Source of the DNA: a bacterium | Lineage (GTDB): Bacteria; UBP18; UBA7526 | Assembly: GCA_030619985.1 (NCBI GenBank) | Contig: JAUXAI010000023.1 | Span: forward strand, 1-17,344 | Reading direction: 5' to 3' | Length of the DNA: 17,344 nt | Part shown: piece by piece, positions 1-17,344 of the stretch | Numbering within the stretch: the first letter of the stretch is position 1 | Layout: every line of letters starts with the position of its first letter | The notes under the pieces: generated by a model | The model's input: only the letters and a program-made list of their open reading frames with translations | Told to the model about the DNA's origin: nothing | The model's database searches: none | Translations under genes and position numbers: made by a program

Positions 1-1
1 A

Positions 2-4177: not shown

Positions 4178-5250
4178 TAAAGGAAGCGCGACTCTATAAG
4201 AAATTAAAGAATAAGAGTGTACAGTGCAATATCTGCCAGAGGAGATGCATTATCTCTAAAGGAAAGATGGGCTACTGCTTTACCCGGGAGAATCGGGATG
4301 GTAAACTCTATACCCTGATCTATGGGGAGGTCTCCACCAGGCATATCGCTCCCATTGAGATCAAGCCCTTATTCCACTTCTATCCAGGAAGTAAATGGCT
4401 CTCCTTAGGCACTTTGGGATGTAACTTCAGATGCCTTGGGTGTCAGAACTGGGAGATCGCACATTATAAAATTAAAAATCAAAACTCCCCGAAGGAGAAC
4501 AAGTTCCCTACGGGGCAGGCAAAACTCAAAAGTACAGAGTATATTTCTCCAGAAGAAGTGGTAAGGCTGGCAAAGGAGAACGGATGTAAAGGTCTATCCT
4601 TCACCTATAATGAGCCGACCATATGGTTCGAATATACCTTAGACTGTGCCAGACTTGCTAAGAAAGAGGGACTCCTCTCTAACTATGTAACAAATGGCTA
4701 TATTACTAAAGAGGCTCTGGATATGATCGGGCCTTACCTTGCTGCCTTTCGGGTAGATATTAAAGGCTTCTCTAATAAATTCTATAGGTGGCTTGCCAAC
4801 GTGGATGACTTCAGAGGCATATTAGAAGTAACTAAAAGGGCAAAGGATAAGTGGAGAATGCATGTTGAGATCGTGACCAATATCATTCCCGGACATAGTG
4901 ATGATGAGGAACAACTAAAAGGGATCGCTACCTGGATCTACAAAAACTTGGGAGAGGATACCCCCTGGCACGTCACCAGGTTTATTCCCTACCTACAATT
5001 ATCCCATCTTTCTCCTACTCCAGTGGCCACTTTAGAGAAGGCACAGGGAATAGGAAGAGAAGCGGGACTAAAATTTGTTTATTTAGGAAATGTTCCCGGC
5101 CATGAACTAGAGAATACCTACTGCCCCAGATGTGGTAAGTTACTCATCAAAAGACTGAACTACTCCATCCTTGAATACCATATCAAGAATGGAAAGTGCA
5201 CCTATTGCCAGGAATCCATCTCCATCGTTGGGGGATTTATAAGAGAGTAA
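4174..5250 (+). CDS. amrS: AmmeMemoRadiSam-system-type radical SAM enzyme (PflA-like)
   Basis: A 358-residue radical SAM protein. The [4Fe-4S]/SAM motif is C83-x3-C87-x2-C90 (GCNFRCLGCQNWEI). An N-terminal Cys set (C18, C21, C25, C35) and a C-terminal pair of knuckles (C317, C320, C342, C345) match the AmrS branch of pyruvate formate-lyase activase homologues, as does KPLFHFYPGS just before the SAM motif. The family's usual partners, AMMECR1 and Memo, are not in this window, and the substrate of AmrS is not known to me. ATG 4174 overlaps the upstream TGA by 4 nt, which implies coupling to the HhH-GPD gene; a start at 4126 would lie inside that gene. Residues 104-115 come from an in-frame repeat element. 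Confidence 0.83.
   Translation: MIKEARLYKKLKNKSVQCNICQRRCIISKGKMGYCFTRENRDGKLYTLIYGEVSTRHIAPIEIKPLFHFYPGSKWLSLGTLGCNFRCLGCQNWEIAHYKIKNQNSPKENKFPTGQAKLKSTEYISPEEVVRLAKENGCKGLSFTYNEPTIWFEYTLDCARLAKKEGLLSNYVTNGYITKEALDMIGPYLAAFRVDIKGFSNKFYRWLANVDDFRGILEVTKRAKDKWRMHVEIVTNIIPGHSDDEEQLKGIATWIYKNLGEDTPWHVTRFIPYLQLSHLSPTPVATLEKAQGIGREAGLKFVYLGNVPGHELENTYCPRCGKLLIKRLNYSILEYHIKNGKCTYCQESISIVGGFIRE
4487..4515. repeat. In-frame palindromic repeat element inside amrS
   Basis: The 29 nt from CCCCGAAGG to CTACGGGG are imperfectly palindromic. They closely resemble the reverse complement of a repeat in the gene-poor region at 16969-16991 (from CCCCGTAGAC to TTCTTCGGGG). Both have CCCCGAAG, then GAACAAGT, then TACGGGG. 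In amrS the element is read as residues 105-114, between the SAM-cluster motif and the STEYISPEEVV segment, where relatives usually have only a short linker. Confidence 0.6.
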
Positions 5251-5287
5251 TTCGTTAATTTAGGAGATGCTTCAAAGTTTTTAGGTA

Positions 5288-5413
5288 TTGAGAAAGGAGA
5301 AAAAATACCTATTAGCGTCTATTTCCATTGTTCTATTAATCCTTGCCTTCTTCGTAATCATAGAAGCCATAAGGGTCTTCAGACAAAGAGCGCGGTCGTT
5401 GATCTTCAGATAA
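5288..5413 (+). CDS. Possible 41-residue single-span membrane peptide
   Basis: An open frame from TTG 5288 to TAA 5411-5413 encodes a charged start (RKEKK), a hydrophobic span of about 18 residues (YLLASISIVLLILAFFVII) and a basic tail (EAIRVFRQRARS). That is a well-formed small membrane protein. Translation start is a problem: the TTG has at best a very close AGG, and an ATG at 5267 in the same frame is separated from it by a TAG at 5282-5284. It could therefore be a decayed gene, a recoded one, or chance. No function is proposed. Confidence 0.28.
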   Translation: MRKEKKYLLASISIVLLILAFFVIIEAIRVFRQRARSLIFR

Positions 5414-5450
5414 AATTAACCTCAGTCTCCGCTTTGATTAGAAAAACTTT

Positions 5451-5479
5451 TTGTCTTTTTAAATCTCTTATGCTATAAT
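5451..5479 (+). promoter_or_regulatory. Extended -10 promoter for the antiporter gene
   Basis: TTGTCT (5451-5456) and TATAAT (5474-5479) are separated by 17 bp, and TGC directly before the -10 makes it an extended -10. The match to the sigma-70-type consensus is 4/6 at -35 and 6/6 at -10. Transcription would begin near 5486, leaving a short leader with AAGGAG at 5501-5506. Confidence 0.8.
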
Positions 5480-5511
5480 ATTAAAATAAAGAGAATAACT
5501 AAGGAGAGGAG

Positions 5512-6777
5512 ATGGAGTTTTTGAACCTGATAAGAGAAATTATCCATGAGATGCCTGTCATCTCTACAGTGGGCCTGGTTCTTATCTTTGGATTCATAGG
5601 GAGCAAGGTCGCCCAGCGTCTGAAGCTCCCTGCAGTGACGGGCTATATATTCGCGGGAGTGATAGTAGGCCATTCAGTACTGGGCTTAGTGGAGAAGGAG
5701 ATACTCCTCTCCTTAAGAGGAATAACCACTTTGGCCCTGGGCCTCATCGCCTTTACCATAGGCAGTGAGCTGAAAATAAGGAAGATAAAGGAGTTAGGGA
5801 AAAATATCCTCTACATCGCTCCTTTAGAATCCCTGGGAGCCTTTTTCTTTGTCTCTCTCACGGTTCTAATATTTGGGCTACTCTTTCCTTCCCTCTGTGG
5901 GTTAAACCCTGAAGGGGCATTGCTTGGGGTTCTTCCCCTGGCCCTACTCTTAGGAGCCATAGCGAGCGCTACCGCTCCGGCAGCTACCTTAGCGATAATG
6001 AATGAATATCGGGCCAAGGGCCCACTCACCGATACCCTCTTAGCAGTAGTTGCTTTAAATGATGGGTTCTGTATCATAATCTTTGGTATGGTCTATGGCA
6101 TTATGAATGGCCTGGCAGGAGGAGGTGGCCAGCTATCCCCTCTTCTTGTTTTAGGCCACCCGCTATTAGAGATACTGGGCTCCCTAATCCTCGGTGCTCT
6201 CCTGGCCCTGATTTCTCTTTTCTTCTTACGCTTGGTAAGGGGAAGGAGTGGGGCCCTGATAGTGATGCTGGGAATGGTCATGGTATGTAGTGGAATGGCC
6301 ACTATGTATCATCTATCTTCCCTCTTGGCCAATATGGCCCTGGGCTTCACCTTAGCCAATGTCTCCAAGAAGATTCATCTGGTGGCAGGTTCTATCCAGG
6401 GCATTGAGCCCCCTATCTATGTGGCCTTCTTTACCATTGCCGGTATGCATCTCGACCTTCACCTCTTATTGAAAATAGGACTTTTAGGAGGAATATACTT
6501 TATTTCTCGAATAGTGGGTAAAATAGGAGGAGCTGGGATAGGAGCCCGGCTGGCCCAGGCTTCAAGATCAGTACAGAAATATTTAGGATTGGGTCTGGTA
6601 CCCCAGGCAGGGGTGGCCATTGGCCTCATTCTCCTCGTTCAAGAGAATCCCAATTTCTCGGAAATATCTACAATTATTACTAATGTCGTCTTGGCTGGGG
6701 TGGCTCTGAATGAGTTGTTTGGCCCCTTAGCAGCAAAGGTGGCTATAACCAAGTCGGGTGAGGCCTTTAAGAGATAG
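5512..6777 (+). CDS. Cation:proton antiporter (CPA/NhaP-Kef type), membrane domain only
   Basis: A 421-residue very hydrophobic protein with about 12-13 membrane spans and the marks of the Na+/H+ exchanger superfamily. Visible are GYIFAGVIVG in the N-terminal part, SATAPAATLAIMNEYRAKGP at residues 152-171, and the ion-binding pair in VVALNDG (Asn183-Asp184). An Asn-Asp pair is typical of electroneutral CPA1 exchangers, while Asp-Asp marks electrogenic ones, so an electroneutral exchange of Na+ or K+ for H+ is inferred. There is no C-terminal TrkA-N (RCK) domain, unlike KefB/KefC. The start is clear: AAGGAG lies 5 nt before the ATG and a strong promoter lies upstream. The CBS protein that follows may be a regulatory partner. 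Confidence 0.88.
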   Translation: MEFLNLIREIIHEMPVISTVGLVLIFGFIGSKVAQRLKLPAVTGYIFAGVIVGHSVLGLVEKEILLSLRGITTLALGLIAFTIGSELKIRKIKELGKNILYIAPLESLGAFFFVSLTVLIFGLLFPSLCGLNPEGALLGVLPLALLLGAIASATAPAATLAIMNEYRAKGPLTDTLLAVVALNDGFCIIIFGMVYGIMNGLAGGGGQLSPLLVLGHPLLEILGSLILGALLALISLFFLRLVRGRSGALIVMLGMVMVCSGMATMYHLSSLLANMALGFTLANVSKKIHLVAGSIQGIEPPIYVAFFTIAGMHLDLHLLLKIGLLGGIYFISRIVGKIGGAGIGARLAQASRSVQKYLGLGLVPQAGVAIGLILLVQENPNFSEISTIITNVVLAGVALNELFGPLAAKVAITKSGEAFKR

Positions 6778-6783
6778 TTAGAA

Positions 6784-6945
6784 GTAACCGGTGATCAATG
6801 ATCAGTGATCGGTAGGAGAATAGGAGAAAATGGGCAGGTGGGAAAGTGAGGATAAATTCTGGGGGTTTAATTTCCAATATCCGATTTCTAATAACCAAAT
6901 AGAAAATTTTCACTGACTTATTAACTTATTCACTTATCAACTTTA
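6784..6945. repeat. Spacer with repeated TGATCA-type units
   Basis: The antiporter-CBS spacer holds GGTGATCAATGATCAGTGATCGGT-like units (6791-6814, three TGATC copies). These are followed by AGGAGAATAGGAGAAAATGGG and an AT-rich stretch of TTATTAACTTATTCACTTATCAA units (6918-6940). I see no ORF or terminator. It belongs to the same kind of phrase-like filler seen in the other spacers. Confidence 0.5.
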
Positions 6946-6962
6946 ATTTGAGGGGGTAAAAA

Positions 6963-7394
6963 ATGGAAGAAATAAAGGCAAGGAATATCATGACCAAGAA
7001 AGTAATTACCATAAGCCATAATACCAGTATCAGAGAGGCGGATGAGATTCTGAAGAAGAATAAGATCACCGGCCTTCCAGTAATAGATAAGGATGGGGAG
7101 ATGGTGGGCATCATATCAGAGAAGCACCTCCTCTCCATCTACGATATAAGGGGAGAGGAGGTAGAGCACTATGCCTTCCGCCTTCCCTATGAGTATCGCG
7201 TCTGGGTGGAGGAGATCATGACTAAGGAGGTGATCTCGGTAAATGAGGAGACGCCTCTGAAAGAGATATGTGAGCTCATGGTCAAGAATCATATCCATAG
7301 GGTACCCGTGTTAAGGGAGAAGAAGGTGGTGGGTATCATCTCCACCATGGACATCGCTAAGTATATGCTTGAGTTATTGAGCCATAAAAAATAA
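6963..7394 (+). CDS. Two-CBS-domain protein
   Basis: A 143-residue cytoplasmic protein made of two CBS motifs and nothing else. CBS1 spans about residues 5-60 (NIMTKKVITISHNTSI, then GLPVIDKDGEMVGIIS). CBS2 spans about 82-138 (EIMTKEVISVNEETPL, then HRVPVLREKKVVGIIS). Such Bateman modules bind adenine nucleotides or SAM and act as sensors for enzymes and transporters. Its place right after an antiporter that lacks its own regulatory domain suggests a separate regulatory subunit, but this is inference. The start follows GAGGGGG by about 6 nt. The gap from the antiporter is 185 nt, so it could have its own promoter. Confidence 0.9.
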   Translation: MEEIKARNIMTKKVITISHNTSIREADEILKKNKITGLPVIDKDGEMVGIISEKHLLSIYDIRGEEVEHYAFRLPYEYRVWVEEIMTKEVISVNEETPLKEICELMVKNHIHRVPVLREKKVVGIISTMDIAKYMLELLSHKK

Positions 7395-7466
7395 TAGGAA
7401 TAATTCATATTAAGACTCCCTCTAATCTATTGTTAACCTCTTTTATAAATACCACTATAAAAAAAC

Positions 7467-7495
7467 TTGACAAAGAATAAATGAAGTGATATACT
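7467..7495 (+). promoter_or_regulatory. Strong promoter of the small RNA unit
   Basis: TTGACA (7467-7472, full consensus) and TATACT (7490-7495, 5/6) lie 17 bp apart. A start near 7502 is expected. No gene with a ribosome site follows before the terminator at 7616-7644. Confidence 0.85.
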
Positions 7496-7501
7496 ATTTC
7501 T

Positions 7502-7644
7502 ACAATGAGGAGAGTAGCGCTTTGAGATCGCCCTGCCCAGGGGGTAAGTTCGGTGCTAAATTTATATCCATTAATTAAGAGTTACAGAAAAAATCTTCTC
7601 CAGAAGTTTTTGATTAAGGTCAGTCTGCAAGACTGACCTTTTTT
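7502..7644 (+). ncRNA. Candidate structured RNA of about 140 nt, class unknown
   Basis: The region runs from an expected start near 7502 to a terminator and has no credible ORF; the only ATG near the start (7505) gives six codons. It can fold: GGAGAG 7509-7514 with TTCTCC 7596-7601 as closing stem, TAGCGC 7515-7520 with GTGCTA 7553-7558, and an inner CCCT 7531-7534/AGGG 7539-7542 hairpin. A full unit of strong promoter, structure and terminator suggests a free small RNA, possibly a 6S-type or other regulatory RNA, or a riboswitch-type attenuator. I could not match it to a known family. As an attenuator it would control the phosphatase gene 144 nt downstream of the terminator. Confidence 0.6.
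7616..7644 (+). terminator. Rho-independent terminator of the small RNA
   Basis: AAGGTCAGTC (7616-7625) pairs with GACTGACCTT (7631-7640) over 10 bp, with a small TGCAA loop and a run of six T (7639-7644). This is a textbook terminator on the + strand. A weaker CTTC-TCCA-GAAG hairpin followed by five T lies just upstream (7595-7611) and could be an alternative structure. Confidence 0.9.
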
Positions 7645-7787
7645 ATTAACGCAGAATCGCAGAAGAGAATAGTGAAACTAGTAAATTAGTTGGAATAGTT
7701 GGATTAAAAAATTTACTTAATATCCTAATCCACCTAATATACTAATCCAACTCGTCTTGTGATTCGGCGGTTGCAAGGGGGGTCAGG
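7645..7787. repeat. Repeat-rich spacer before the phosphatase gene
   Basis: The spacer holds AACGCAGAATCGCAGAAG (7648-7665) and a loose inverted repeat made of TTAGTTGG/ATAGTTGGATTA (about 7685-7707) and TAATCC/CTAATCCAAC (about 7726-7750). It ends in GGGGGGTCAGG, the ribosome site of the next gene. No ORF is seen. Confidence 0.5.
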
Positions 7788-8333
7788 ATGAAGAGAAGAG
7801 TTAAGATTACCTTGCTTTCCGTTGTCTGCATCTATGCCGTTGTTCTCACTTCCGTGAATATTAGAGATCTGAAGGTGGGCTTTGACTACGATGATACTTT
7901 AGTCTTCTCTACCCCATCTTTTAGAGTGGCTAATAAGAGTGGAGAACGTCCCTATTCAGAGGAATATTGGAGGGTAGTGAATAGTAGTTTCCATCTGGAT
8001 AAGAAGAAACTGGTCCCGGTGACTATTGCCTTGGTCTATAAGGCCCTAGGCTATGATGCAGTAATCATCACTTCTCGCCAGGGATATGGGGGGGAGGAGT
8101 TGAAGAAGAACTGGAAGTGGCTTGCCCGGGAATTCTACTTCGAGAGAAATAAGTCATCCATCTTAGAGAAGGAAAGATTTGTTGCCTACTTCGGAGATAG
8201 TGACTCAGATATCACAGAGGCCAGGGAAGCAGGTGTTCGACCAATAAGGGTGAAGAGGAGTCCGAAGAGTGACAATAAGAGGAAATACCATCCCGGCCAG
8301 TACCAGGAGTTTGTGCTTCCCTTTTCAGATTAA
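7788..8333 (+). CDS. Class B (AphA-like) acid phosphatase of the HAD superfamily, exported or anchored
   Basis: A 181-residue HAD phosphatase. Residues 3-22 form a hydrophobic signal or anchor segment after MKRR. Motif I is GFDYDDT (31-37; nucleophile Asp33, acid/base Asp35) followed by LVFSTPSF, as in E. coli AphA (GFDIDDTVLFSSPGF). Motif II is IITSRQ (93-98), and YFGDSDSDITEAREAG (134-149) is the metal-binding motif IV. Class B enzymes remove phosphate from nucleotides in the periplasm. The length fits after a somewhat short N-terminal region. The start is supported by GGGGGGTCAGG. Its position just before genes for nucleic-acid-binding exported proteins suggests a nucleotide-salvage role, which is inference. 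Confidence 0.85.
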   Translation: MKRRVKITLLSVVCIYAVVLTSVNIRDLKVGFDYDDTLVFSTPSFRVANKSGERPYSEEYWRVVNSSFHLDKKKLVPVTIALVYKALGYDAVIITSRQGYGGEELKKNWKWLAREFYFERNKSSILEKERFVAYFGDSDSDITEAREAGVRPIRVKRSPKSDNKRKYHPGQYQEFVLPFSD

Positions 8334-8393
8334 GATTCTTTTAACTTAGTACTTAAAAAAGACTTAGTAAATTGAAAAAGGGGGTCTAACGGG

Positions 8394-8624
8394 ATGAAGG
8401 AATCGAAGAGCGAAGGAGTGGTCGATAGAATAGAAGGAGATTTAGCGGTGGTGGAAACAGAATGGAGGGAGGTAGTCAATATTCCCTTGAAGTATCTCCC
8501 AGAAGGGACGAGGGAAGGGAACGTACTGGACATTATCTTCAGAATAAATCCGGAAAGAGAGAAGGAGAGAAGAGAAGAGATTAAGAAATTACAAGAGGAA
8601 CTTTTAAAGAGGGGCGAGAAATGA
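8394..8624 (+). CDS. DUF3006 family protein
   Basis: A 76-residue acidic protein. The first half (GVVDRIEGDLAVVETEW, then IPLKYLPEGTREGNVLDI) matches the small beta-rich DUF3006 family. The last 27 residues are a charged helix (REKERREEIKKLQEELLKR). DUF3006 genes are often found beside ComEC-like metallo-beta-lactamase genes, as here, but no biochemical function is established to my knowledge. GGGGG lies about 11 nt before the ATG. Its TGA overlaps the next ATG by 4 nt (ATGA), so the two proteins are probably made together, which hints at a partner or chaperone role. Confidence 0.8.
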   Translation: MKESKSEGVVDRIEGDLAVVETEWREVVNIPLKYLPEGTREGNVLDIIFRINPEREKERREEIKKLQEELLKRGEK

Positions 8625-10357
8625 TAAAGAAAAAACTATGGCTTTTGATTCCACTTTCCGTTGCCCTTCTTTTAGTTAGTCTTACTAGCCAGGTAGATGC
8701 CTTTAGACGGCAAGCGCCCCTTACTGTCTATTACTTAGATATTGGACAGGGGGATTCTACGGTCATTACCACCCCAGATGGGAAAAACATCCTGATTGAT
8801 GGTGGCATGGGAGGACCAGGATATATAAGCAAGGATAAGGGAAGAACAGTCATTCTTCCTTTCTTGAAAGAGAAGGGGATCAAGAGACTCGATATGATAA
8901 TCATGACCCATGCGGACTTTGATCATATCGGAGGATTGATCTATATTCTTAAAAGCCCCATTGAGATTGTAGAATTCCTTGACCCCGGGTGGCCTGGGAC
9001 TACTTACCTTTATCAAGACCTCTTAAAGGCCGTGAGGGCCAGGCGGGAGATAAAGTATCGCCAGCCAAAGGTGGGAGAATTCCTCGATTTTGGTAAGGGA
9101 GTGACCGCCCAGGTGGTAGGTGGCGGCCCGAACTATGGCGATGCCAATAACTCTTCCATTGTGGTAAAACTTACCTACGGAAATGTCTCTTTCATGTTGA
9201 CTGCTGATGCGGCTAAGGAATCAGAAAGGGATATGATTAGTAGATATGGTAATGAACTAAGGTCTACTATATTAAAGGCTGGCCACCATGGCTCGGCCCA
9301 TTCTAGTAGTACCCCGTTCCTCAATTGTGTCAAGCCTCAGGTGGTGACAATTAGTGTAGGAGAAGGCAATAAGCACAAACTCCCCTTTAAAGAGGCCCTG
9401 GATAGGCTGAATGCTACGGGAGCTAAGATATATCGCACAGACTATCAGGGGATGGTCACCATTACTACAGATGGCAAGACCTATGAGGTAGTAACAGAGA
9501 GGAAGGCTCCGCCACTGGAGGAAAGATGGGATTATGTAAGGGTTCTCACTGAAGAGGAGAAGATCAATATCAATACTGCTTCTGCTGCTGAGCTTAAGAC
9601 CCTGCCCAGGATAGGACCTGCTCGGGCCCTGGACATCATTGCCCGTCGACCCTATTCCTCAGTTGATGATCTGAGGAGAGTGCCCGGGATCGGGCCCAAG
9701 ATTGTAGAGAGGTTGAGACCTCTGGTTACGGTGCGCGGAGGTATCCCGGAGAAAAAAGTAGTTCCAGAAAAGAAAGTGGTTCCGAAAAAGAAGGCGCCGG
9801 CTCTTCCCGCCCCAGGGGTCTCCTCTATTGGGAGTATGACCCGGGCGAACGTGGGGCAGAGGGCAAGGTTCAAAGGAAAGATAACAAGCATCAAGGTCTT
9901 CAAGGAAGAGAAGGGCCGCACTTTGCGGATTAACGACGGCACCGGAAGCATAGATGTTCTCATCTGGAAGAGCCTATACCAGCGCCTACCCCGGAGAGAA
10001 AGCCTCAAGATCGGCACCTCCATCCAGGTCACTGGCCAGATCGGTTTCTATAAAGGAGGGCTACAGATAAAGCCCAAGGAGCCTTCTGATATCCAGTTCC
10101 TGGGTGCAGCACCAGTGATAAAGAAGCCTCCAGCGAAGAGAGTAACTCCTGCAGAGAAGAGAGTGGTTCCAGGGGCCAGGATAAATATCAACACCGCTTC
10201 TGCCCCCCAGTTAGAGACCCTCCCTAGGATTGGGCCAGCTAAGGCCCAAGCAATCATCGCTGGTAGGCCCTATGCTACAGTTGACGATTTACTTAAGGTA
10301 AGGGGAATCGGACCTGCCACCCTGGAAAAATTGAGACCATTGGTTACTGTAAAGTAA
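8621..10357 (+). CDS. Secreted ComEC-type metallo-beta-lactamase fused to HhH, OB and HhH domains
   Basis: A 578-residue protein with a signal peptide (about 1-27) and four modules. (1) A ComEC/Rec2-type metallo-beta-lactamase domain, 33-290: LDIGQGDS, THADFDHIGG (H97, D99, D101, H102), MLTADA (D196) and AGHHGSAHSS (220-229). (2) A ComEA-like HhH pair, 314-371: ININTASAAELKTLPRIGPA, then VPGIGPK. (3) A K/P-rich linker, then an OB fold, 403-495, with INDGTGSIDVLIW (437-449). (4) A second ComEA-like HhH, 519-577. All metal ligands expected for this family appear present. Predicted role: an exported nuclease or related hydrolase that binds DNA through HhH and OB parts. It lacks the Competence channel domain of full ComEC. 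Confidence 0.87.
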   Translation: MIKKKLWLLIPLSVALLLVSLTSQVDAFRRQAPLTVYYLDIGQGDSTVITTPDGKNILIDGGMGGPGYISKDKGRTVILPFLKEKGIKRLDMIIMTHADFDHIGGLIYILKSPIEIVEFLDPGWPGTTYLYQDLLKAVRARREIKYRQPKVGEFLDFGKGVTAQVVGGGPNYGDANNSSIVVKLTYGNVSFMLTADAAKESERDMISRYGNELRSTILKAGHHGSAHSSSTPFLNCVKPQVVTISVGEGNKHKLPFKEALDRLNATGAKIYRTDYQGMVTITTDGKTYEVVTERKAPPLEERWDYVRVLTEEEKININTASAAELKTLPRIGPARALDIIARRPYSSVDDLRRVPGIGPKIVERLRPLVTVRGGIPEKKVVPEKKVVPKKKAPALPAPGVSSIGSMTRANVGQRARFKGKITSIKVFKEEKGRTLRINDGTGSIDVLIWKSLYQRLPRRESLKIGTSIQVTGQIGFYKGGLQIKPKEPSDIQFLGAAPVIKKPPAKRVTPAEKRVVPGARININTASAPQLETLPRIGPAKAQAIIAGRPYATVDDLLKVRGIGPATLEKLRPLVTVK

Positions 10358-10541
10358 ATTAGGCTCCAAGTTACGTTAATCGGTTGCCCTTCACTTCGTT
10401 CAGGATACCTCGCCGAAGTGAAGTATCCCGAGCAGGAAGCGAGGGGCGGGCTTCGTTGCCGTAACCCTCTGACGTAACCTTTGGCTTATCTGCTTAAATC
10501 TGCGTTGCCATCTGTGTTAATCTGTGTTCAGGAGTGAAGAG
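10358..10541. repeat. Long imperfect palindrome and repeat spacer before corA
   Basis: The spacer holds a 10-bp perfect inverted repeat, CTTCACTTCG (10390-10399) and CGAAGTGAAG (10414-10423). It is flanked by more distant partners such as CCAAGTTACGT (10367-10377) and ACGTAACCTTTGG (10472-10484). The 3' end is CTGCGTTGCCATCTGTGTTAATCTGTGTT-like filler (about 10499-10528). No T run follows, so it does not look like a simple terminator. Confidence 0.55.
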
Positions 10542-11525
10542 ATGATTACTTCCTTTCTCTTAAGAGAAGGTAAAAAGTTAGAGACCGGGATCGACCTTAA
10601 GAAGGTCAAGAAACTTCTTAAGAATGAGAAGAACATCCTGTGGCTTGACTTCTTCGATCCCAGTGAAGAAGATTTTGAATTCTTAAGAGCGGCCATCTAT
10701 CTCCATTCTCTGGTGATCGATGCCTGCCGTGTTCCTCAAGAAGAGCCCAAGGTTGATGAGTTCCCGGATTACCTCTTCATGATCATGCACTCTGTCTACT
10801 ATTATAAGGATAAGGAAGAGAGAGGGGAGGAACCCTTGAGCATCCGAGAGATAGACGTTATCTTAGGGAAGAATTACATCCTCACCTTACATAAGGAAAA
10901 GATATGGAATATAAATAAAATAATGGAGGAGTTAAAGAAAAATCCTGAAATACTTTCTAAGGGATGCGACTTCCTCCTCTATTCTATCTTAGATGACATT
11001 ATGGATAACTACTTCTATATCCTGAACCTTATTGAGGACCGGATAGATGAATTGGAAGACACTGTTTCTACTGCTAAGCCAGAAAAGTTTTTAAATAAGG
11101 TCTTTTCCTATAAGAGACACATTATTTCCCTGAGGAAGGTCATGGCTCCCCAACGAGAGCTCATCGCCCGTTTCTGCAGAAGGGACTATCCTTTCGTTCA
11201 TCCTCAGATGGCCGTCTACTATAGGGATATCCACGATCATCTGATCAGGATCCATAGTATGATCGAGACCTTTCGGGAGTTATTAACCTCAGTAATGGAA
11301 GCCCATCTCTCCCTTCTCTCTCATAAGATGAACAATACCATGAAGGTACTGACCATTGTGGCCACTATCTTCATCCCCATGACCTTTCTTACCGGACTGT
11401 GGGGGATGAACTTTGTCTTCATCCCAGAGTTCAGGTGGCGCCTCGGCTACCTCTTCGCCTGGGGCATTATCTGCTTAACCGGATTCCTGATTTACGTCTA
11501 CTGCCGTAGGAAGAGATGGTTCTGA
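10542..11525 (+). CDS. corA: CorA-family magnesium/divalent cation transporter
   Basis: A 327-residue protein of the CorA/2-TM-GxN family: an N-terminal cytoplasmic alpha/beta domain, a long helical stalk (about 140-265), two membrane spans (about 268-287 and 302-320) and a basic C-terminal end (CRRKRWF). The pore motif GMN is at 288-290 (TGLWGMNF). The protein forms a pentamer in the inner membrane and passes Mg2+ (or Co2+/Ni2+). ATG 10542 is preferred because AGGAG (10530-10534) lies 7 nt upstream; a GTG at 10524 would sit in the repeat filler. A link to the nearby nucleic-acid genes through Mg2+ supply is possible but unproven. Confidence 0.92.
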   Translation: MITSFLLREGKKLETGIDLKKVKKLLKNEKNILWLDFFDPSEEDFEFLRAAIYLHSLVIDACRVPQEEPKVDEFPDYLFMIMHSVYYYKDKEERGEEPLSIREIDVILGKNYILTLHKEKIWNINKIMEELKKNPEILSKGCDFLLYSILDDIMDNYFYILNLIEDRIDELEDTVSTAKPEKFLNKVFSYKRHIISLRKVMAPQRELIARFCRRDYPFVHPQMAVYYRDIHDHLIRIHSMIETFRELLTSVMEAHLSLLSHKMNNTMKVLTIVATIFIPMTFLTGLWGMNFVFIPEFRWRLGYLFAWGIICLTGFLIYVYCRRKRWF

Positions 11526-11529
11526 TACG

Positions 11530-11615
11530 TAGATTATCGCAGATGGAAAGACACAGATGATCACAGAAAAAGACCGCAGATGACCGCAGATAAAAAAATC
11601 AGCGGCAATCAGCGT
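11530..11615. repeat. CGCAGAT/ACACAGAT repeat spacer
   Basis: The spacer after corA contains many variants of one short unit: ATCGCAGATGG, ACACAGATGATCACAGA, ACCGCAGATGACCGCAGAT and ATCAGCGGCAATCAGCG. An ATG here (11580) opens the frame of the next gene upstream, but that extension is repeat sequence and not a likely protein start. Confidence 0.6.
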
Positions 11616-11636
11616 TTAAGAGGGGAGGTGAGAAGA

Positions 11637-12125
11637 ATGAAGAGAGGATTGATTCTGGTACTTGCTTTAGGTCTTCTAATCTTTGGAGCGACCCTAATTC
11701 AGGCCAAGGTAAATATCAATGAAGCTACTAGTGCAGAACTCCAGAGCCTTCCCGGAGTGGGACCAGCCAAGGCTAAGGCAATCATCGCTGCTCGACCCTA
11801 CGCCAGTATTGATGATATCACCAAGGCAAAGGGAGTGGGGCCCAAGACCCTGGAGAAGTGGAAGGACCTGATTACTGTAGAGGGTGCCACAGAGGTGGTT
11901 GGCAAACCAAAGGCAGTCAAGAAGAAGCCCCTTGCTCCGGGAGCAAAGGTCAACATCAATACTGCTACCAGTGCAGAGCTTCAGGCCCTTCCTGGAGTGG
12001 GACCAGCCAAGGCCCAGGCAATCATCGCTGCTCGACCCTACGCTTCGATCGATGATATCACCAAGGCAAAAGGAGTGGGACCCAAGACCCTGGCGAAGTG
12101 GAGGGACCTGATTACTGTAGAGTAA
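11637..12125 (+). CDS. Secreted tandem ComEA-like helix-hairpin-helix protein
   Basis: A 162-residue protein: signal peptide 1-23 (MKRGLILVLALGLLIFGA, cleavage likely after QA), HhH unit 24-82, a basic linker (KPKAVKKKPLAPGAK), and HhH unit 104-162. Each unit has INxATSAELQxLPGVGPAKA and a second hairpin GVGPKTL, the DNA-binding pattern of ComEA. Native ComEA has one such region, so the doubled form is a variant. The units are almost identical at the DNA level (11706-11882 and 11946-12122, both 177 nt), which shows recent duplication. The protein could be a periplasmic double-stranded DNA receptor. ATG 11637 follows GGGGAGGTGA; an upstream start at 11580 reads repeats. Confidence 0.88.
   Translation: MKRGLILVLALGLLIFGATLIQAKVNINEATSAELQSLPGVGPAKAKAIIAARPYASIDDITKAKGVGPKTLEKWKDLITVEGATEVVGKPKAVKKKPLAPGAKVNINTATSAELQALPGVGPAKAQAIIAARPYASIDDITKAKGVGPKTLAKWRDLITVE
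11706..12122 (+). repeat. Two 177-nt tandem units encoding HhH domains
   Basis: Unit 1 (11706-11882) and unit 2 (11946-12122) have equal length and align without gaps. Long exact blocks include GCAATCATCGCTGCTCGACC and GATGATATCACCAAGGCAAA. A 63-nt linker separates them. The differences are few and mostly third-position or conservative. Confidence 0.85.
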
Positions 12126-12481
12126 TACAGGTCACAGGCCTCAGGAGAAAGTTACCAGTTATTGGTGATTAGGAGATTGCCCGCCAGAGGCGAGGTCTCG
12201 CCCCTCTGGGGCGGAGGAAACTGGGAATAAACAACAATGCAAAATGAGTGAGCAGTTAATTTTGCACTGCTAATTGCTAATTTTGCACTTTGCATTGAAA
12301 CGAAGTGCCTGATATCCTAATTTCCAAATCCTACATTCTGAGTATTGCGAAGAATTTAGCCAGATTGTCTGGCGTCTATCCGAGTTTCCTAATATCCAGA
12401 ATCAAGCATCCAGTATCTGTGATCTGTGCTAATCCGTAATCAATCTGTGTAAATCTGTGTTGAAAGGAAGGAGGGAGAATT
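12126..12481. repeat. 356-nt gene-free spacer built from repeats and hairpins
   Basis: No ORF is seen. The spacer holds four parts. (1) A hairpin, CCAGAGGCGAG (about 12184-12194) with CTCGCCCCTCTGG (about 12197-12209). (2) A self-complementary block with TGCAAAATG (12238-12246), repeated TAATTTTGCACTGCTAATTGCTAATTTTGCAC, and CTTTGCATT (12289-12297). (3) ATCCTAATTTCCAAATCC and TCCTAATATCCAG phrases. (4) ATCTGTGATCTGTGCTAATCC...AATCTGTGTAAATCTGTGTT just before the ribosome site AAGGAGG. The last block matches the corA upstream filler. Confidence 0.6.
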
Positions 12482-13591
12482 ATGGTTGTAGAAGAAGAGA
12501 TCAGATGTCCCAGTTGTGGTCGCTTTGTGGGAGCCCATTACAAGTGCCCCTACTGTGGAGCCCACATTAAGCATCGCCTTTCCCTAAGGCTCTTTAAGTA
12601 TGGCTCCATCGTGATGGCCTTGGTGGGATTGGTGATCTTGTATCTGGTTACCACCCAAGTCATCTCTGTTCCGGTAGTAAAAGTAGCCGATATTACCGGG
12701 GTCATGAACTTTGCCAATGCCAAGGTTTCGGGAAGAGTAGTGAAGGTAAAACCACCGACAAAGAGGGGGATGTTTAACTTTACCATCGATGATGGCACGG
12801 GAGAGTTAAAGATTACCTCCTTTGGTAAGATCACTGAGGATCTTAAAAGGCTAAATAGATTCCCTAAATTGGCAGACGAAGTAGAGGCAATAGGGGCCAT
12901 TAAGGTAAGTGACCAGTATGGTAATTCCTTACAGTTACAGAGTGCCCAGAACCTTAAGATAAAGCCGGCTATCTTTCCCCTTACCAAGATCAAGGATATC
13001 TATCCCAAAGAAGCAGGTAGTTTAGTAAAGTGTTTTGGAGGGGTAAAGTATGAGCCTTACACCAAGTATAACAATTTGTACTTCTGGGTAGAGGATGAGA
13101 CGGGAAAGATTAAGGTTATGGCCCATAAGTGGCTCTACAAAGAACTCAAGGAGATTAAGAAAGTGCCTCGGGAAGGGGATAAGGTGCATCTTGCTGCCCG
13201 GGTATATGTGAAGGGAGGAAGGAGAAGCCTCACCCTGGTTAGACTGGATATCTTCCGGCTTATCCGTAAAGAAGTCCTCACCTCAAAAGAGGAAATCCCC
13301 AAACTCAATATTGGTCTCATTACCAGTGAGAGGGTAGGGAAGATGGTAGAATGTGAGGGGAAGGTCCTAACTCTTAGAAGAAGGACGAATCCTACGGTAC
13401 TGGTAATAGCAGATGAGACGGCAAAGATTGAGGTAGTCTACTGGCCAGAGGTGGAGAGGGGAGTGGATAGGTTGGTTACTACCCCTGATGCTGAGATCTC
13501 GGTAAGAGGTAAGGTAACCATGTATCGGGGAATGATGCGCATCAAAATCTTCTGGCCAGAGGATATAAGTCTAATTGGAGAAAGGGGGTAA
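12482..13591 (+). CDS. Zinc ribbon, membrane-anchored protein with three OB-fold domains
   Basis: A 369-residue protein. A zinc ribbon (C9-C12, C22-C25) is followed by basic residues and one membrane span (about 37-58). Three OB-like repeats follow: about 66-160 (DDGTGELKITSFG at 103-115), 165-262 (EDETGKIKVMAHK at 204-216) and 275-365 (ADETAKIEVVYWP at 310-322). The positive charges before the span suggest the zinc ribbon is in the cytoplasm and the OB domains outside (inference). The DGTG motif is the same as in the OB module of the MBL-HhH-OB-HhH protein, so both may bind single-stranded nucleic acid. The start follows AAGGAGG closely. A gap of 3 nt to the next gene suggests co-translation. 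I do not know a named family with this layout. Confidence 0.8.
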   Translation: MVVEEEIRCPSCGRFVGAHYKCPYCGAHIKHRLSLRLFKYGSIVMALVGLVILYLVTTQVISVPVVKVADITGVMNFANAKVSGRVVKVKPPTKRGMFNFTIDDGTGELKITSFGKITEDLKRLNRFPKLADEVEAIGAIKVSDQYGNSLQLQSAQNLKIKPAIFPLTKIKDIYPKEAGSLVKCFGGVKYEPYTKYNNLYFWVEDETGKIKVMAHKWLYKELKEIKKVPREGDKVHLAARVYVKGGRRSLTLVRLDIFRLIRKEVLTSKEEIPKLNIGLITSERVGKMVECEGKVLTLRRRTNPTVLVIADETAKIEVVYWPEVERGVDRLVTTPDAEISVRGKVTMYRGMMRIKIFWPEDISLIGERG

Positions 13592-13594
13592 GAA

Positions 13595-14917
13595 ATGGAA
13601 TTTATTTATCTTCTTTTCTGGACCCTTCTAGGTACCTTGATTGCTGGGGTATTATCCCTCATTCCCGCATTACACGTCTATAATGTGGTAGGTTTCTTTA
13701 TCCTGTGGTGGGGAGCCCATCTTGACCTTATCCCAGCAGTGTATGTGGCGGTCTTCTTTATGGCCCTGGTTGTCTCCTGGTCCATAATAAATACCTTGCC
13801 CGCCCTCTTCCTGGGAGCGCCAGATGAGAGTGCCATGTTTGTTGTCTTACCAGGACAGAAGTATATGTTGCAGGGTAAGGGATATGAGGCAGCGGTTTTG
13901 ACTGGGATCGGTGGGATAAGTGGGATAGTTGCCCTATGGGTTCTATTTCCTTTTAGCTTTCGCCTCATGAAGTATGTTAAGAATTTGATCAGTCCTCACC
14001 TTTTCTGGATCTTAGGCCTGATCATTGTCTACATCATTGCTTCAGAATGGCCAAAAGCCACCCTGAGAGCCAAGACCGCTTTAGGGAGGACACTGGAGGG
14101 ACTGAAGTCCTGTGGAGCAGGCCTTTTGACCTTGATTCTCTCTGGCTTCTTGGGACTGATGGTGATGAATCGGACCCTTCTTCCGGTAGAAAAAGCCTTC
14201 CAATCCCTGATGCCGGCCTTTGTTGGTCTCTTTGCTGTTCCCTGGGTGATTACCAATATCATCTCCAGAACAGAGATACCCAAACAGTATATTGGAAACT
14301 CAGTTGATGTTGGGTTTTCTCATATTGTTAAGGGTACCGTGGCGGGTGTTTTAGGAGGGGGTTTTGCGGCCCTTATGCCCGGGGTTACTGGAGGAGTAGG
14401 AGGCCTCTTATCGGGCCATGCTCTTGCTCAAAGGGATGAGAGGATCTTCGTCTTATCTCAAGGCGTAAGTAAGACCTTATACTACGTAGGTGCTTTTCTC
14501 CTCTTCTTCATTGTTCCTTTGAATCATCTTACCAGGGGAGGATTGGCCTGGATGCTCAAGCCCTACTACACGGCATATACCATTGCTGACTACTGGCGCA
14601 TTATGGCGGTAATGGCCATAAGTGGTGGGTTATCCTTTCTGCTTCTTTTACCCCTCTCTCGTTTTATGATTAAGCTAATTACCAGGGTAAACTATCGCTT
14701 AGTTTCCATTATCACCACCTTCATTTTATTTGCCATTGTCCTGGCTATGGCGAGTTGGATGGGGTTACTCATCATGCTGGTGGCCACTTGCATTGGACTG
14801 GTTCCGGTTATGTGGCATTCCCGGAGGATGAACTGCTTGGGGATTCTCTTGATTCCTATGTTTCTCAATATGGCGGGATTAGGTGTTCCTGTTCTACACT
14901 TCCTGAAAATCATCTAA
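13595..14917 (+). CDS. TctA-like (COG1784-type) polytopic membrane protein
   Basis: A 440-residue protein with about 11 membrane spans. The N-terminal part (GTLIAGVLSLIPALHVYN) and a PALFLGAPDESAMFVVLPG block (residues 69-87) followed by GKGYEAAVLTGIGG match the TctA-like COG1784 family, best known from archaea. A second glycine-rich block (GVLGGGFAALMPGVTGGVGG) lies near 250-268, as in the family. TctA proteins are the large membrane part of tripartite tricarboxylate transporters; this branch usually lacks the TctB/TctC partners, and none is seen here. Its substrate is unknown. The ATG lies 3 nt after the upstream stop, with GAAAGGGGG as ribosome site. Confidence 0.8.
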   Translation: MEFIYLLFWTLLGTLIAGVLSLIPALHVYNVVGFFILWWGAHLDLIPAVYVAVFFMALVVSWSIINTLPALFLGAPDESAMFVVLPGQKYMLQGKGYEAAVLTGIGGISGIVALWVLFPFSFRLMKYVKNLISPHLFWILGLIIVYIIASEWPKATLRAKTALGRTLEGLKSCGAGLLTLILSGFLGLMVMNRTLLPVEKAFQSLMPAFVGLFAVPWVITNIISRTEIPKQYIGNSVDVGFSHIVKGTVAGVLGGGFAALMPGVTGGVGGLLSGHALAQRDERIFVLSQGVSKTLYYVGAFLLFFIVPLNHLTRGGLAWMLKPYYTAYTIADYWRIMAVMAISGGLSFLLLLPLSRFMIKLITRVNYRLVSIITTFILFAIVLAMASWMGLLIMLVATCIGLVPVMWHSRRMNCLGILLIPMFLNMAGLGVPVLHFLKII

Positions 14918-15082
14918 CGGCGATTGAATCGCCGAGTAAGAAACATTATTCGGTTGCGGTTGCGCGACTCGTATCGTTAATCGGCAAACGTCTATCGGGA
15001 AAGACAACGCAACCGTAAGACGTAAGACGAAACGAGCAGCGCAACCCTTCAACGTATAACGATACCTTAAGAGGAGGTAAAG
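14918..15082. repeat. Palindrome-rich spacer before the YdjM-like gene
   Basis: CGGCGATT-G-AATCGCCG (14918-14934) starts directly after the TctA-like stop. It is followed by a large imperfect hairpin: GGTTGCGC (14958-14965) with GCGCAACC (15039-15046), CTCGT with ACGAG (14968-14972 and 15032-15036), and GTATCGTTA (14971-14979) with TAACGATAC (15057-15065). CGTAAGACGTAAGACGA lies in the loop. The end of the spacer gives the ribosome site GAGGAGG for the next gene. No long T run is seen. Confidence 0.6.
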
Positions 15083-16342
15083 ATGAAAGGTTTAACTCAT
15101 TTTTGTACTGGGGTGGCGACCGCCACCTGTTTTACCCAGGCCATGCATATGTCTATGGAATCCAGTTCCCTTATCCTGCTCCTGGGAGGACTATTCGGCA
15201 TCTTGCCTGATACCCAGGACTTCAAACTTGCCATGTTCTTAGCCAAGAACGACTACATCATCGATCCGGCAACCCCGGAATATCTTCTCGATTCCCGCAA
15301 CCCAAGTTCTATCGATGCCCAGAAGGTGGCGGATAAGATGGCCGAGGCTATCAATGAATGCTGGGATACGGGAAAGAACATCACCCTTCAGATGCACACC
15401 ATCCAGATGGGGGCTGATAACTGGAGACAGTATCAGGTGGGCTATGATGTGGAAAAGAATGAGACCATGGTAAAGTTAGGATCGGTGGTCTCTATGTCCC
15501 AGCTCCCCGTGCATATTGAAGGAACCGAACTCACTGGACCAAAAGAGGGAAGGGGCAAGGCAAAGTGTAAGATATTAATGGCCCAGGCAAGACCCTCTTC
15601 CATAGATATCTTCAACGGTCCTTCCTTTTTATTTACCAAAAAGAAAGAGGGAGTGAATATTGTCTTTCTTCCCTGGCATAGACAGTGGAGCCATTCCGCT
15701 ACCTTAGGGCTAATCTATGGCCTCTTGGGTTGGCTCATTATGGGCCTGGTCTTAGGCTCCTTTGCCAAGGCCTGGATCTATGGGGCGGTCATTACCTGTG
15801 GCTACTTCTCTCACCTCTTATTCGACTTCACGGGTTTCATGGGAGCCAATATCGCCTGGCCCTTTATGCATAAGAGGCTGGAAGGGGGAAGGTTCTTAAA
15901 GGCCAGTAACCCCTTAGGAAACCTCTTCGTCATCTGGGGGAGTGCTATCCTGGTGACCTTTAATATCAATCGGGTGGCCACTCCACCAGTCTTTCCCCTT
16001 TCTCCCGGAAAACTCTTCGGTTTCTTCTGGCTTCTGCCCTTCTTCCTCATCATGCTTATCGCCCGCATCTCTGAGGAGAAGAAGCCAATCGCCGGGATGG
16101 TCAAAAAGAGCAAACTCGCCATAAAGAGTATTCCCCTGATATTGCTCTTAGGAGAGGGATGGAGAGAGAAGGTTCAGGAGACAAAGAAAAGGACTAAAGG
16201 AATAAGAAGAATAGGGGCTATCATCTATCTCCTATTGCAGCTCTTTATGAGAGGGAAGGAAGAGGAGACCATAGCCGAGGCCATCACTGACGAACAGACC
16301 ATGGAGAATCAGGAAGACTTCGCTACCTCCGACAGCATCTAG
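15083..16342 (+). CDS. YdjM/DUF457-like membrane protein, possible metal-dependent hydrolase, with large insert
   Basis: A 419-residue protein with the metal-binding motifs of the DUF457/YdjM family: His6 in GLTHFCTG, GILPDTQDF (39-47; Asp43 and Asp46), RQWSHSATLG (200-209), and GYFSHLLFDFTG (240-251; His244, Asp248). The hallmark motifs are split by a soluble insert of about 145 residues (50-197), including Asp/Lys-rich segments and GADNWRQYQVGYDVEKNE. After the core come further spans (about 281-297 and 313-329) and a long acidic tail. YdjM in E. coli is SOS-regulated and has no proven activity; I see no clear LexA box here. GAGGAGGTAAAG precedes the ATG. The start and end are well defined. 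Confidence 0.78.
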   Translation: MKGLTHFCTGVATATCFTQAMHMSMESSSLILLLGGLFGILPDTQDFKLAMFLAKNDYIIDPATPEYLLDSRNPSSIDAQKVADKMAEAINECWDTGKNITLQMHTIQMGADNWRQYQVGYDVEKNETMVKLGSVVSMSQLPVHIEGTELTGPKEGRGKAKCKILMAQARPSSIDIFNGPSFLFTKKKEGVNIVFLPWHRQWSHSATLGLIYGLLGWLIMGLVLGSFAKAWIYGAVITCGYFSHLLFDFTGFMGANIAWPFMHKRLEGGRFLKASNPLGNLFVIWGSAILVTFNINRVATPPVFPLSPGKLFGFFWLLPFFLIMLIARISEEKKPIAGMVKKSKLAIKSIPLILLLGEGWREKVQETKKRTKGIRRIGAIIYLLLQLFMRGKEEETIAEAITDEQTMENQEDFATSDSI

Positions 16343-16453
16343 AGATTTCTGAAAAATCAGAAATCTTTGATTACACTGATTAAAAACAAGATTACACAGA
16401 TTAGCTATCGGCGAAGAAATCCGTGTAATCATCCTAAAAATCTATGTAATCAG
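16343..16453. repeat. Hairpin plus GATTACACAGATT-type repeats after the YdjM-like gene
   Basis: AGATTTCTGA (16343-16352) and TCAGAAATCT (16357-16366) form a perfect 10-bp hairpin with AAAA loop directly after the stop, but with only three T after it. Next come GATTACACTGATT (16370-16382), GATTACACAGATT (16392-16404), AATCCGTGTAATC (16418-16430) and AATCTATGTAATC (16439-16451). These are sense and antisense forms of one unit, the same unit as the AATCTGTGT filler upstream of corA and of 12482. Confidence 0.65.
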
Positions 16454-16484
16454 AGGGCTCTGAAGATTTTTCAGAGTCCTTTTT
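16454..16484 (+). terminator. Rho-independent terminator after the YdjM-like gene
   Basis: AGGGCTCTGAA (16454-16464) pairs with TTCAGAGTCCT (16470-16480) over 11 bp with one G-T pair and a 5-nt loop; five T follow (16480-16484). It lies 112 nt after the stop and should end that transcript. Confidence 0.85.
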
Positions 16485-17075
16485 AAAAATTTGCCAATAG
16501 TTCCAAAATATCCCATGGAAAAACCCTTGTCCACCTACGAGGTGGGATTGGTTATTGTCCATTTTTTCCCATTAGAGATAAGAGTGCTCTAATGAGGCAG
16601 GCGGGGCGAGCGGGGTAAATGATCGCTCTACCCTGTTGATAATTCTCATATCTACGGGGCCCGCCGGCAGGCGGGCCTTCCTGTCGGTAGACAGGAAGAA
16701 AAGTGGACACTGAAGGCCTTCTCAGATTATTAAAAGAACAAAATGAAAAGGGCTGCGGGAAAACCGCAGGATTTGGAAGACCTTAAATATTTGCTCAAAC
16801 TAAGAAAAATTAAGCGAAAGAAACGCTGAAATATAGAAGTAAAATGAAGAGAAGAAGAATTTTTCAGAACTTATTTATTGTCAAATGTTTACCCCGTAGC
16901 ATCCTAGAGGGATTGGTTCGGGGCCTGCCCCGCCCTGAACCATACGGTGCAGGGCCCCGTAGGTTTACCCCGTAGACTTGTTCTTCGGGGCTTGTCCTTC
17001 GGGGTCAAGATTTATCCCGTTGGATGTTTACTATCCAATGGGACCTGATCCCCATTCTAGGGTTGAGATAGGAAG
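16485..17075. repeat. 591-nt gene-poor region with inverted repeats and CCCCGTAG elements
   Basis: Apart from a remnant described separately (16703-16829), I find no gene. Repeats include CCACCTACGAGGTGG (about 16531-16545), CATTAGAG/CTCTAATG (16570-16577, 16587-16594), and two adjacent hairpins GGCCCGCC-GGCA-GGCGGGCC (16658-16677) and CTTCCTGTC-GGTA-GACAGGAAG (16677-16698). GTTTACCCCGTAG occurs twice (16887-16899, 16963-16975) with a diverged TTTATCCCGTTGG (17011-17023), plus CTTCGGGGCTTGTCCTTCGGGG (about 16983-17004) and CCCGTTGGAT/ATCCAATGGG (17016-17042). The dense, varied palindromes suggest an area of repeated insertions. Confidence 0.65.
16703..16829 (+). pseudogene. Probable internal-deletion remnant of a nucleotidyltransferase gene
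   Basis: GTG 16703, preceded by AGGAAG at 16692-16697, opens a frame whose first 17 residues (MDTEGLLRLLKEQNEKG) resemble the start of AbiEii/MNT-type nucleotidyltransferases. A different frame, ATG 16743 to TGA 16829, encodes 28 residues beginning MKRAAGKPQDLEDLKYLLKL. This resembles the conserved C-terminal end (usually GRPKDLEDIKAL) of the same family. The likely story is that a gene lost its whole middle, with a frame change at the junction near 16745-16755. The catalytic core is missing, so it should be inactive. Identification is from short motifs and needs an alignment; the similarity could be partly chance. Confidence 0.42.
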
Positions 17076-17258
17076 ATGAGGAGTGAAAAATATCTTAAAC
17101 TGAATAGACGAAGGAAGCATCTAAGACCAAAGCTTTATCCAGAAAATCTGGAGAAAGTATTTTTATTCAACCAACTGTTAGGGAAGGCGATAAGACCGTG
17201 GCAAACCAAAAGGAAGAAATTAAAAAGATTATCAGAGCGTTTAATAAAAGAAGGCTGA
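17076..17258 (+). CDS. Small basic protein, possible partner of the nucleotidyltransferase
   Basis: A 60-residue, very basic protein (MRSEKYLKLNRRRKHL at the start, RKKLKRLSERLIKEG at the end), probably helical, without a recognised domain. ATAGGAAG is close before the ATG, a weak ribosome site. Its end overlaps the start of the following nucleotidyltransferase by 61 nt in another frame, unusually long but seen in tightly coupled pairs. The setting (small gene directly before an AbiEii/MNT-like gene, in a repeat-rich region) is that of a toxin-antitoxin pair, where one partner is small. That is inference; it could also be a leader or a chance ORF. Confidence 0.5.
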   Translation: MRSEKYLKLNRRRKHLRPKLYPENLEKVFLFNQLLGKAIRPWQTKRKKLKRLSERLIKEG

Positions 17259-17344
17259 GGTATCTCGTTATTGGAGGAGTTGCTGTTGTTTTATACGGGG
17301 TAGAGAGGGCTACTTTTGACCTAGATCTTCTCTTGCCTCAGGAT
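17198..17344 (+). CDS. AbiEii/MNT-type nucleotidyltransferase, N-terminal part (3' end outside window)
   Basis: From GTG 17198 the frame is open to the window end and encodes 49 residues. The signature RYLVIGGVAVVLYGVERAT, then DLDLLL, is the GG-x(n)-hG motif and the first metal-binding Asp pair (DxD) of a minimal nucleotidyltransferase. Such proteins often act as the enzyme of toxin-antitoxin pairs (AbiEii, MenT, MNT-HEPN), transferring a nucleotide to an RNA or protein target. AGGGAAGG (17180-17187) lies 10 nt before the GTG. The fragment is enough for the fold but not for the exact subfamily. The gene remnant at 16703-16829 seems to be from the same family. Confidence 0.8.
   Translation, partial: MANQKEEIKKIIRAFNKRRLRYLVIGGVAVVLYGVERATFDLDLLLPQD

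Follow-up and report, generated by a model that had tools for sequence, protein, structure and literature searches.

The window analysed in this study is a whole stretch of 17,344 nucleotides, positions 1 to 17,344 of the forward strand of contig JAUXAI010000023.1 (GenBank assembly GCA_030619985.1), from a bacterium of the UBP18 lineage UBA7526. It encodes a putatively exported metallo-beta-lactamase (MBL) protein with helix-hairpin-helix (HhH) and oligonucleotide/oligosaccharide-binding (OB) domains (P0002), a putatively exported double-HhH protein (P0003), and a zinc ribbon protein with one transmembrane (TM) helix and three OB domains (P0004), whose gene is followed by those of a TctA-family and a YdjM-like membrane protein. 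The chances are about even that these genes make up a two-part, envelope-side island for DNA processing and uptake in a ComEC-bearing bacterium. The more interesting feature is the conserved bacterial OB/TctA/YdjM-like operon, which extends just beyond the range of a first-pass annotation that had described the cluster as a possible extracellular DNA processing or salvage system. All proteins named in that annotation are open frames at the positions given there.

The window is contig C59 of genome G000, an assembly of 1.25 Mb with 84% completeness. Its lineage is isolated and deep; five relatives of the same family (G001-G005) were compared, and the next nearest genomes share the domain only. 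The sister genome G002 (JAUWYL010000003.1) is named "bacterium isolate CSMAG_2709", which we take, unconfirmed, to denote a cold-seep metagenome-assembled genome.

The OB/TctA/YdjM-like operon

The TctA gene begins 3 bp past the P0004 gene, and the presence of TctA and YdjM-like genes beside the OB gene, both outside the first-pass range, changes the interpretation of the cluster. P0004 matches PF01336 three times (E 2e-22) and has four invariant cysteines and a TM segment at residues 35-59. Its AlphaFold2 model (predicted local distance difference test, pLDDT, 86) shows a zinc ribbon, one TM helix and three OB barrels. The solved folds nearest to these barrels are HIN-200 with double-stranded DNA, RPA with single-stranded DNA and the OB domains of Asx-tRNA synthetases, and DNA binding is likely for the P0004 OB domains as well as for the HhH domains of P0003. 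The OB profile also matches a solved Methanosarcina mazei OB domain, 2KBN/2KEN (MM0293 residues 67-166), at E 4e-4; as a lead only, this domain may stem from an archaeal single-TM OB protein of the transformation type.

The operon was found by TctA alignment search in 14 of 386 bacterial genomes, with 17 TctA genes in total. At the loci that could be assessed, an OB gene lies upstream in 16/16 and a YdjM-like gene downstream in 16/16 cases, with gaps between OB and TctA genes of mostly -4 to +26 bp. Contig ends cut the operon of G170 upstream and that of G089 downstream, and several OB genes are only fragments at contig ends. One genome, G096, was excluded from the set; its TctA is lone and distant (29% identity), with OB or YdjM neighbours absent. 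G000 and G002 each carry two OB/TctA operons. In genomes beyond the window family its neighbours are unrelated genes, not MBL/HhH genes. No relative of the window TctA was found in the viral contigs searched, and plasmids yielded only two distant cyanobacterial TctAs (about 24-26% identity), one of which was inspected and had no OB-annotated neighbour. Solved structures searched by sequence gave no TctA match, and no report of an OB/TctA/YdjM operon in bacteria was found in the literature search.

The closest parallel is archaeal. In Methanococcus maripaludis, the adjacent genes MMJJ_13020 (single-TM OB protein) and MMJJ_13030 (TctA) are each essential for natural transformation, as is a secreted thermonuclease, and deletion of the TctA homologue abolishes transformation in Methanoculleus thermophilus; a TctA-like protein was the sole membrane transporter to come from the archaeal genetic screen (Fonseca et al. 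2023, PMC10133366). The window operon likewise has adjacent genes for a single-TM OB protein and a TctA-family polytopic protein, but it is bacterial, with an N-terminal zinc ribbon, one to several OB domains, a conserved YdjM-like third gene, and ComEC present too. A crude hydropathy count gave 12-14 peaks for the window TctA, the archaeal protein being reported with 11 helices. With the tricarboxylate transporter TctABC the window protein shares the TctA domain (PF01970), whereas its immediate neighbours are the OB and YdjM-like proteins; TctB and TctC were not recognised at the operon loci read, no search having been aimed at TctB/TctC models. TctA is a candidate import component and DNA import by OB/TctA is plausible, while action of the whole operon in bacterial DNA uptake is held at somewhat less than even confidence. 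As purB/purH-like genes (sequence reading) adjoin the other OB/TctA operon, reliance on imported purines is unlikely.

Exported proteins with ComEC- and ComEA-type domains

Significant Pfam matches in P0002 comprise one MBL domain (PF00753, E 3e-17), two HhH_3 domains (PF12836, E 5e-36) and one OB domain (PF01336, E 1e-9). The solved chains nearest to its MBL domain are ComEC (E 2e-48). The domain has motif II HxDxDH, the motif IV Asp and HHGS, and motif alignment onto Moorella glycerini ComEC showed that it keeps seven of seven residues tested in that protein: H97, D99, D101, H102, D196, H222 and S225, mapped onto H598, D600, D602, H603, D700, H725 and S728, all of which were mutated and tested (PMC12455585). 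TIGR00361 matches P0002 over the MBL only (153 vs cut-off 190), and the Competence membrane domain PF03772 had no match in it. The signal-like N-terminus suggests export.

P0002 resembles ComEC and ComEA in its ComEC-type MBL with the same catalytic residues and in its ComEA-type HhH domains, but it is predicted to be exported and soluble, has no Competence membrane domain, carries OB PF01336 instead of DUF4131, and follows the order MBL-HhH-OB-HhH. Its sequence reads as ComEC's soluble half joined to ComEA, with the channel absent. Nuclease activity rises when an OB, ComEA-HhH or Sac7d domain is tethered to the ComEC MBL (PMC12455585), and P0002, with OB and HhH on one chain with a ComEC-type MBL, would be a natural version of these OB-MBL and ComEA-MBL fusions. 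P0002 is considered, with good confidence, to be a DNA-binding nuclease, and its most economical role would be that of binding and cleaving DNA in the envelope. Searched against contigs of other genomes, P0002 matched a single sister and an MBL-HhH protein from Auribacterota, and the remaining matches were mostly ComEC.

The start of P0003 that yields a signal peptide is at 11637, not 11580, and the N-terminus is signal-like by inspection only. Its two HhH_3 domains (E 1e-35) are internal duplicates of each other. P0003 scores 113 bits with TIGR00426 (cut-off 53) and stays under the cut-off of the full-length ComEA model TIGR01259 (135 vs 152); its gene lies outside the ComEC operon. The architectures that the first-pass annotation had given for P0002, P0003 and P0004 were all borne out, as were, in P0004, the OB folds for which it had asked structure models.

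The genome also encodes ComEC, DprA and an SLBB-HhH ComEA, with the genuine ComEC operon, including SLBB-HhH, on contig C63, and a PilQ-type AMIN-secretin 2.8 kb before an MBL-HhH-MBL cluster. A ComEC-domain protein was present in 17/17 genomes checked, and DprA matched in 16/17, above the cut-off in 15. On contig C69 (L013:1-8953) a protein with at least three HhH units stands beside HhH-barrel proteins and, by sequence reading, GspC/D/E-like secretion genes.

Distribution of the two parts among relatives

The full gene order HAD-DUF3006-P0002-CorA-HhH2-OB3-TctA-YdjM, in which HAD is a haloacid dehalogenase-type phosphatase, is whole in G000 and G002 only. In the other family members the zinc ribbon-OB gene is always with TctA and YdjM-like genes, and the MBL/HhH genes accompany ComEC or a second, long ComEC (ComEC2) or stand alone. 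Placement in ComEC/ComEC2 operons was seen at L085, L088, L080 and L077, and outside the family at L098 and L100. The proposal that the three proteins form one conserved system, for which a genome search for their joint presence and order had been suggested, does not hold: the complete set was confined to the window genome and a single sister, and elsewhere its parts are separate. MBL, HhH and OB units of the same kinds turn up throughout the lineage with secreted staphylococcal-type nucleases (SNases), acid-phosphatase-like proteins and ComEC/ComEA; extracytoplasmic DNA processing is therefore the best reading. The earlier idea that DNA is bound, cut and dephosphorylated outside the membrane survives in part, in this form and not as a single three-protein system. 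Salvage, also proposed, is possible, deoC and nucleoside phosphorylases being present, and is not specifically indicated.

Exported parts are shared within the lineage. An N-terminal TM anchor and a linker with a DTDGDGIPDTF-like tail are common to SNase, MBL and HhH proteins, and in G001 the anchors of the SNase and MBL proteins are identical at 94/121 positions. In G002, the second zinc ribbon-OB protein has OB domains with 68-78% identity to the OB domains of exported OB-SNase and OB-HhH proteins; for the OB domains of the first operon the figure is about 30%. This domain shuffling suggests that the exported domains are one working set in the lineage, to which the OB/TctA operon would be tied. 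On contig C44 of G002, one protein (L075:5470-7404) has a PorV/UPF0164-type outer-membrane barrel start (sequence reading), two OB domains and one HhH, and another of 1422 aa (L075:8406-12674) has three lamin tail domains (LTDs), an MBL and a FlgD-like Ig domain.

The extracellular nucleases YhcR, Xds and ExeM combine OB with nuclease and nucleotidase or LTD. The window lineage resembles them in its exported OB-bearing nucleases, with OB-OB-SNase, SNase, acid phosphatase-OB and LTD-MBL proteins, but P0002 uses a ComEC-type MBL with HhH, and the functions are spread over several genes.

ComEC2, of about 950-1140 aa where complete, occurred in 23/386 genomes overall and in 10/14 genomes with OB/TctA (Fisher p 6e-11, uncorrected; 7/9 families). 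It was not detected in G002 or in G000, the assembly of which is incomplete. In G001, G003 and G005, the genes after ComEC2 encode a small protein, an HhH protein, an exported MBL and more HhH proteins; similar sets occur in G023 and G034. The MBL domain of ComEC2 lacks key residues: it reads TNPSLEH (with changes of His to Asn and Asp to Glu), HHGS is changed to AHGS or AHGN, and an Asp is Asn in 3/4 family members aligned. Among the exported MBLs of these operons, those of G001 and G003 retain the residues, that of G005 has Gly in place of the first His, and the G023 protein is degenerate; a nuclease working in trans would therefore suit only some of the members. In Streptococcus pneumoniae, ComEC has a degenerate MBL and EndA does the cutting (PMC8579336, PMC12455585). 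The window lineage is alike in its degenerate ComEC2 MBL with separate exported MBL genes adjacent, but here an exported MBL, and not EndA, would act as the separate enzyme. At L085, a PD-(D/E)XK nuclease (PF12705, 211 bits) is encoded upstream of ComEC2 (869-2494) and an apparently membrane-anchored protein of 139 aa directly after it (6347-6766).

Neighbouring genes

The coordinates of all features are given in Table 1. The DUF3006 gene, unmentioned in the first-pass annotation, overlaps the P0002 gene by 4 bp, which suggests translational coupling; DUF3006 adjoins exported MBL genes in an unrelated genome too (L105). The phosphatase upstream had been called class B. It is AphA-like and carries DxDxT and DSDxD motifs, and its scores are under the class B acid phosphatase cut-offs of Pfam (PF03767, 23.6 vs 27) and NCBIfam (TIGR01672, 61 vs 196 bits). 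Its paralogues stand directly before OB-OB-SNase and SNase genes on C65 of G000 and C30 of G002 and, on C75 of G001, before genes for an acid phosphatase-OB fusion and an SNase; in this last case the fusion (L084:8253-9335; PF03767, 105 bits) lies between the HAD and SNase genes.

CorA, whose relation had been left undecided, is an ordinary member of its family. It is kept at this position in the sister genome only, and as no recurring link was seen beyond that genome it was rejected as a component and is probably an unrelated neighbour. Similar short intergenic repeats of the kind ATCTGTGTTAATCTGTGTT lie at window positions 10490-10530, 11530-11600 and 12410-12465. Genes resembling 2-oxoacid:ferredoxin oxidoreductase (gamma, delta, alpha, beta) at 193-3359 have no relation to the finding.

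Table 1. Positions of the window genes and of related genes at other loci (L, locus of a compared genome).
Feature	Position	Strand	Basis
AphA-like HAD phosphatase	7788..8333	+	Membrane anchor or signal at the N-terminus; motifs DYDDT and DSDSD
DUF3006 small protein	8394..8624	+	PF11213, 75.3 vs cut-off 32.3 bits
P0002, predicted exported MBL-HhH-OB-HhH protein, 578 aa	8621..10357	+	Pfam domains; signal-like N-terminus
CorA-type Mg2+ transporter	10524..11525	+	PF01544, E 1e-71
P0003, predicted exported double ComEA-type HhH protein	11637..12125	+	HhH_3 x2; TIGR00426
P0004, zinc ribbon-TM-triple OB protein, first operon gene	12482..13591	+	PF01336 x3; model
TctA-family polytopic membrane protein, second operon gene	13595..14917	+	PF01970, 111 bits vs 28.9
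YdjM-like membrane protein, third operon gene	15083..16342	+	downstream of TctA at 16/16 assessable loci
ComEC2 with degenerate MBL	L088:10253-13651, L080:3760-7080, L085:3030-6260, L094:716-4111, L098:2314-5325		
Proteins with shared N-terminal anchor	L084:5737-6897, L084:7285-8082, L011:4928-5719, L077:6832-7458		

Discussion

In the proposed two-part island, the first part would consist of DUF3006 and P0002, with P0003 and perhaps the HAD phosphatase. DNA would be bound outside the cytoplasmic membrane by the ComEA-type HhH and OB domains and cut by the two-metal ComEC-type nuclease domain. The second part would be the zinc ribbon-TM-OB3/TctA/YdjM-like operon, a separate and widespread bacterial unit whose OB and TctA organisation matches the archaeal transformation pair. 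It may receive DNA or fragments at the membrane and help their import, in possible cooperation with the first part and alongside the canonical ComEC encoded elsewhere in the genome.

Several observations weigh against this proposal. The joint order of both parts is limited to G000 and G002, and simple proximity is weak evidence: under random placement in this 1.25 Mb assembly, one of the two OB/TctA operons would come to lie 4 kb or less from any of the five MBL/HhH/OB loci with a probability of about 0.06, and the adjacency could be chance. The final GHP histidine, present in most ComEC-type MBL relatives, is replaced in P0002, and nuclease activity is therefore expected, not certain. The likeness to MMJJ_13020/13030 is one of architecture and family alone. 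The TctA model (pLDDT 81) has the OPT transporter YS1 as its closest structure (Z 12.5, root mean square deviation 5.9, 290 residues) and weakly resembles elevator transporters, a predicted fold that argues for a small substrate rather than a simple DNA channel; the genetics of the archaeal pair points in the opposite direction. A ComEC-domain protein is present in every OB/TctA genome, and a need for a second route is not indicated. A tree of rpoB, made by a quick method with five rows dropped as unaligned to the reference, places most co-occurrences of OB/TctA and ComEC2 in one clade, with three lineages carrying both (the clade, G123 and the window family). Counted in this way, the co-occurrence comes down to about three independent lineages; the uncorrected p therefore overstates the association and was not taken at face value; the association is suggestive, not strong.

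The domains could serve nutritional degradation only, with exported nucleases, HhH/OB binders and phosphatases yielding nucleosides and TctA importing small products, and no polymeric DNA taken in. Such a role accords with the TctA fold, which is like that of small-molecule transporters, with the OB-SNase/SNase or acid phosphatase-OB/SNase genes that come after the HAD paralogues in 3/3 readable relatives, with the exported LTD-MBL protein of the sister genome, and, given the presumed cold-seep origin of that sister, with the DNA degradation known for sediment bacteria (PMC8289736). The lineage has deoC and nucleoside phosphorylases, but these are near universal and not diagnostic. The MBL/HhH genes, moreover, are in ComEC operons and not with nucleoside transporters, and in archaea transformation with intact plasmids requires the OB/TctA pair (PMC10133366). 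Degradation as the sole role is regarded as rather unlikely, and the odds of a link to DNA uptake, as opposed to pure degradation, are put at evens.

The two parts could also be unrelated neighbours, an exported MBL/HhH nuclease locus having come by chance to lie beside an OB/TctA/YdjM operon with no role in DNA, for example in anion transport. TctA is by name a tricarboxylate transporter family, and both the placement test and the unrelated surroundings of the operon outside the family would fit. On the other side are the OB arrays, which are nearest to DNA-binding HIN-200 and RPA, the exchange of OB modules with exported nucleases, the archaeal genetics (PMC10133366) and the enrichment of ComEC2, and chance neighbourhood is judged unlikely. 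A role of the MBL protein as an anti-phage or anti-plasmid defence nuclease, raised by PADLOC matches to LmuA, RTasMBL and Avs1a, was rejected as extremely improbable: the matches span the MBL fold only, none was found among the other window proteins tested, and P0002 has a predicted export signal, ComEA-type HhH and OB domains and better ComEC matches.

The two-part island, if correct, hints at an unrecognised bacterial way to process and import outside DNA. Archaea bring transforming DNA across the membrane in the absence of ComEC, and the bacterial OB and TctA core operon, in genomes rich in competence genes, offers many new species for testing a TctA-like protein in such a role, with YdjM-like as the third partner to look for. 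Free P0002 would allow a natural test of the published view that the nuclease activity of ComEC is driven by DNA-binding domains tethered to it (PMC12455585). The degenerate-MBL ComEC2 beside exported MBLs bears on the degradation of the non-transforming strand when the ComEC nuclease is missing, which is an open question (PMC8579336). At its broadest, and as a speculation that is more doubtful than the island itself and probably wrong in its full extent, several deep bacterial lineages might have a second membrane DNA-import module, zinc ribbon-OB/TctA/YdjM-like, shared in principle with archaea and acting beside or replacing ComEC; the window lineage would then have re-partnered soluble ComEC and ComEA parts with this module, in the form of a free MBL-HhH-OB-HhH nuclease and a receptor with two HhH domains.

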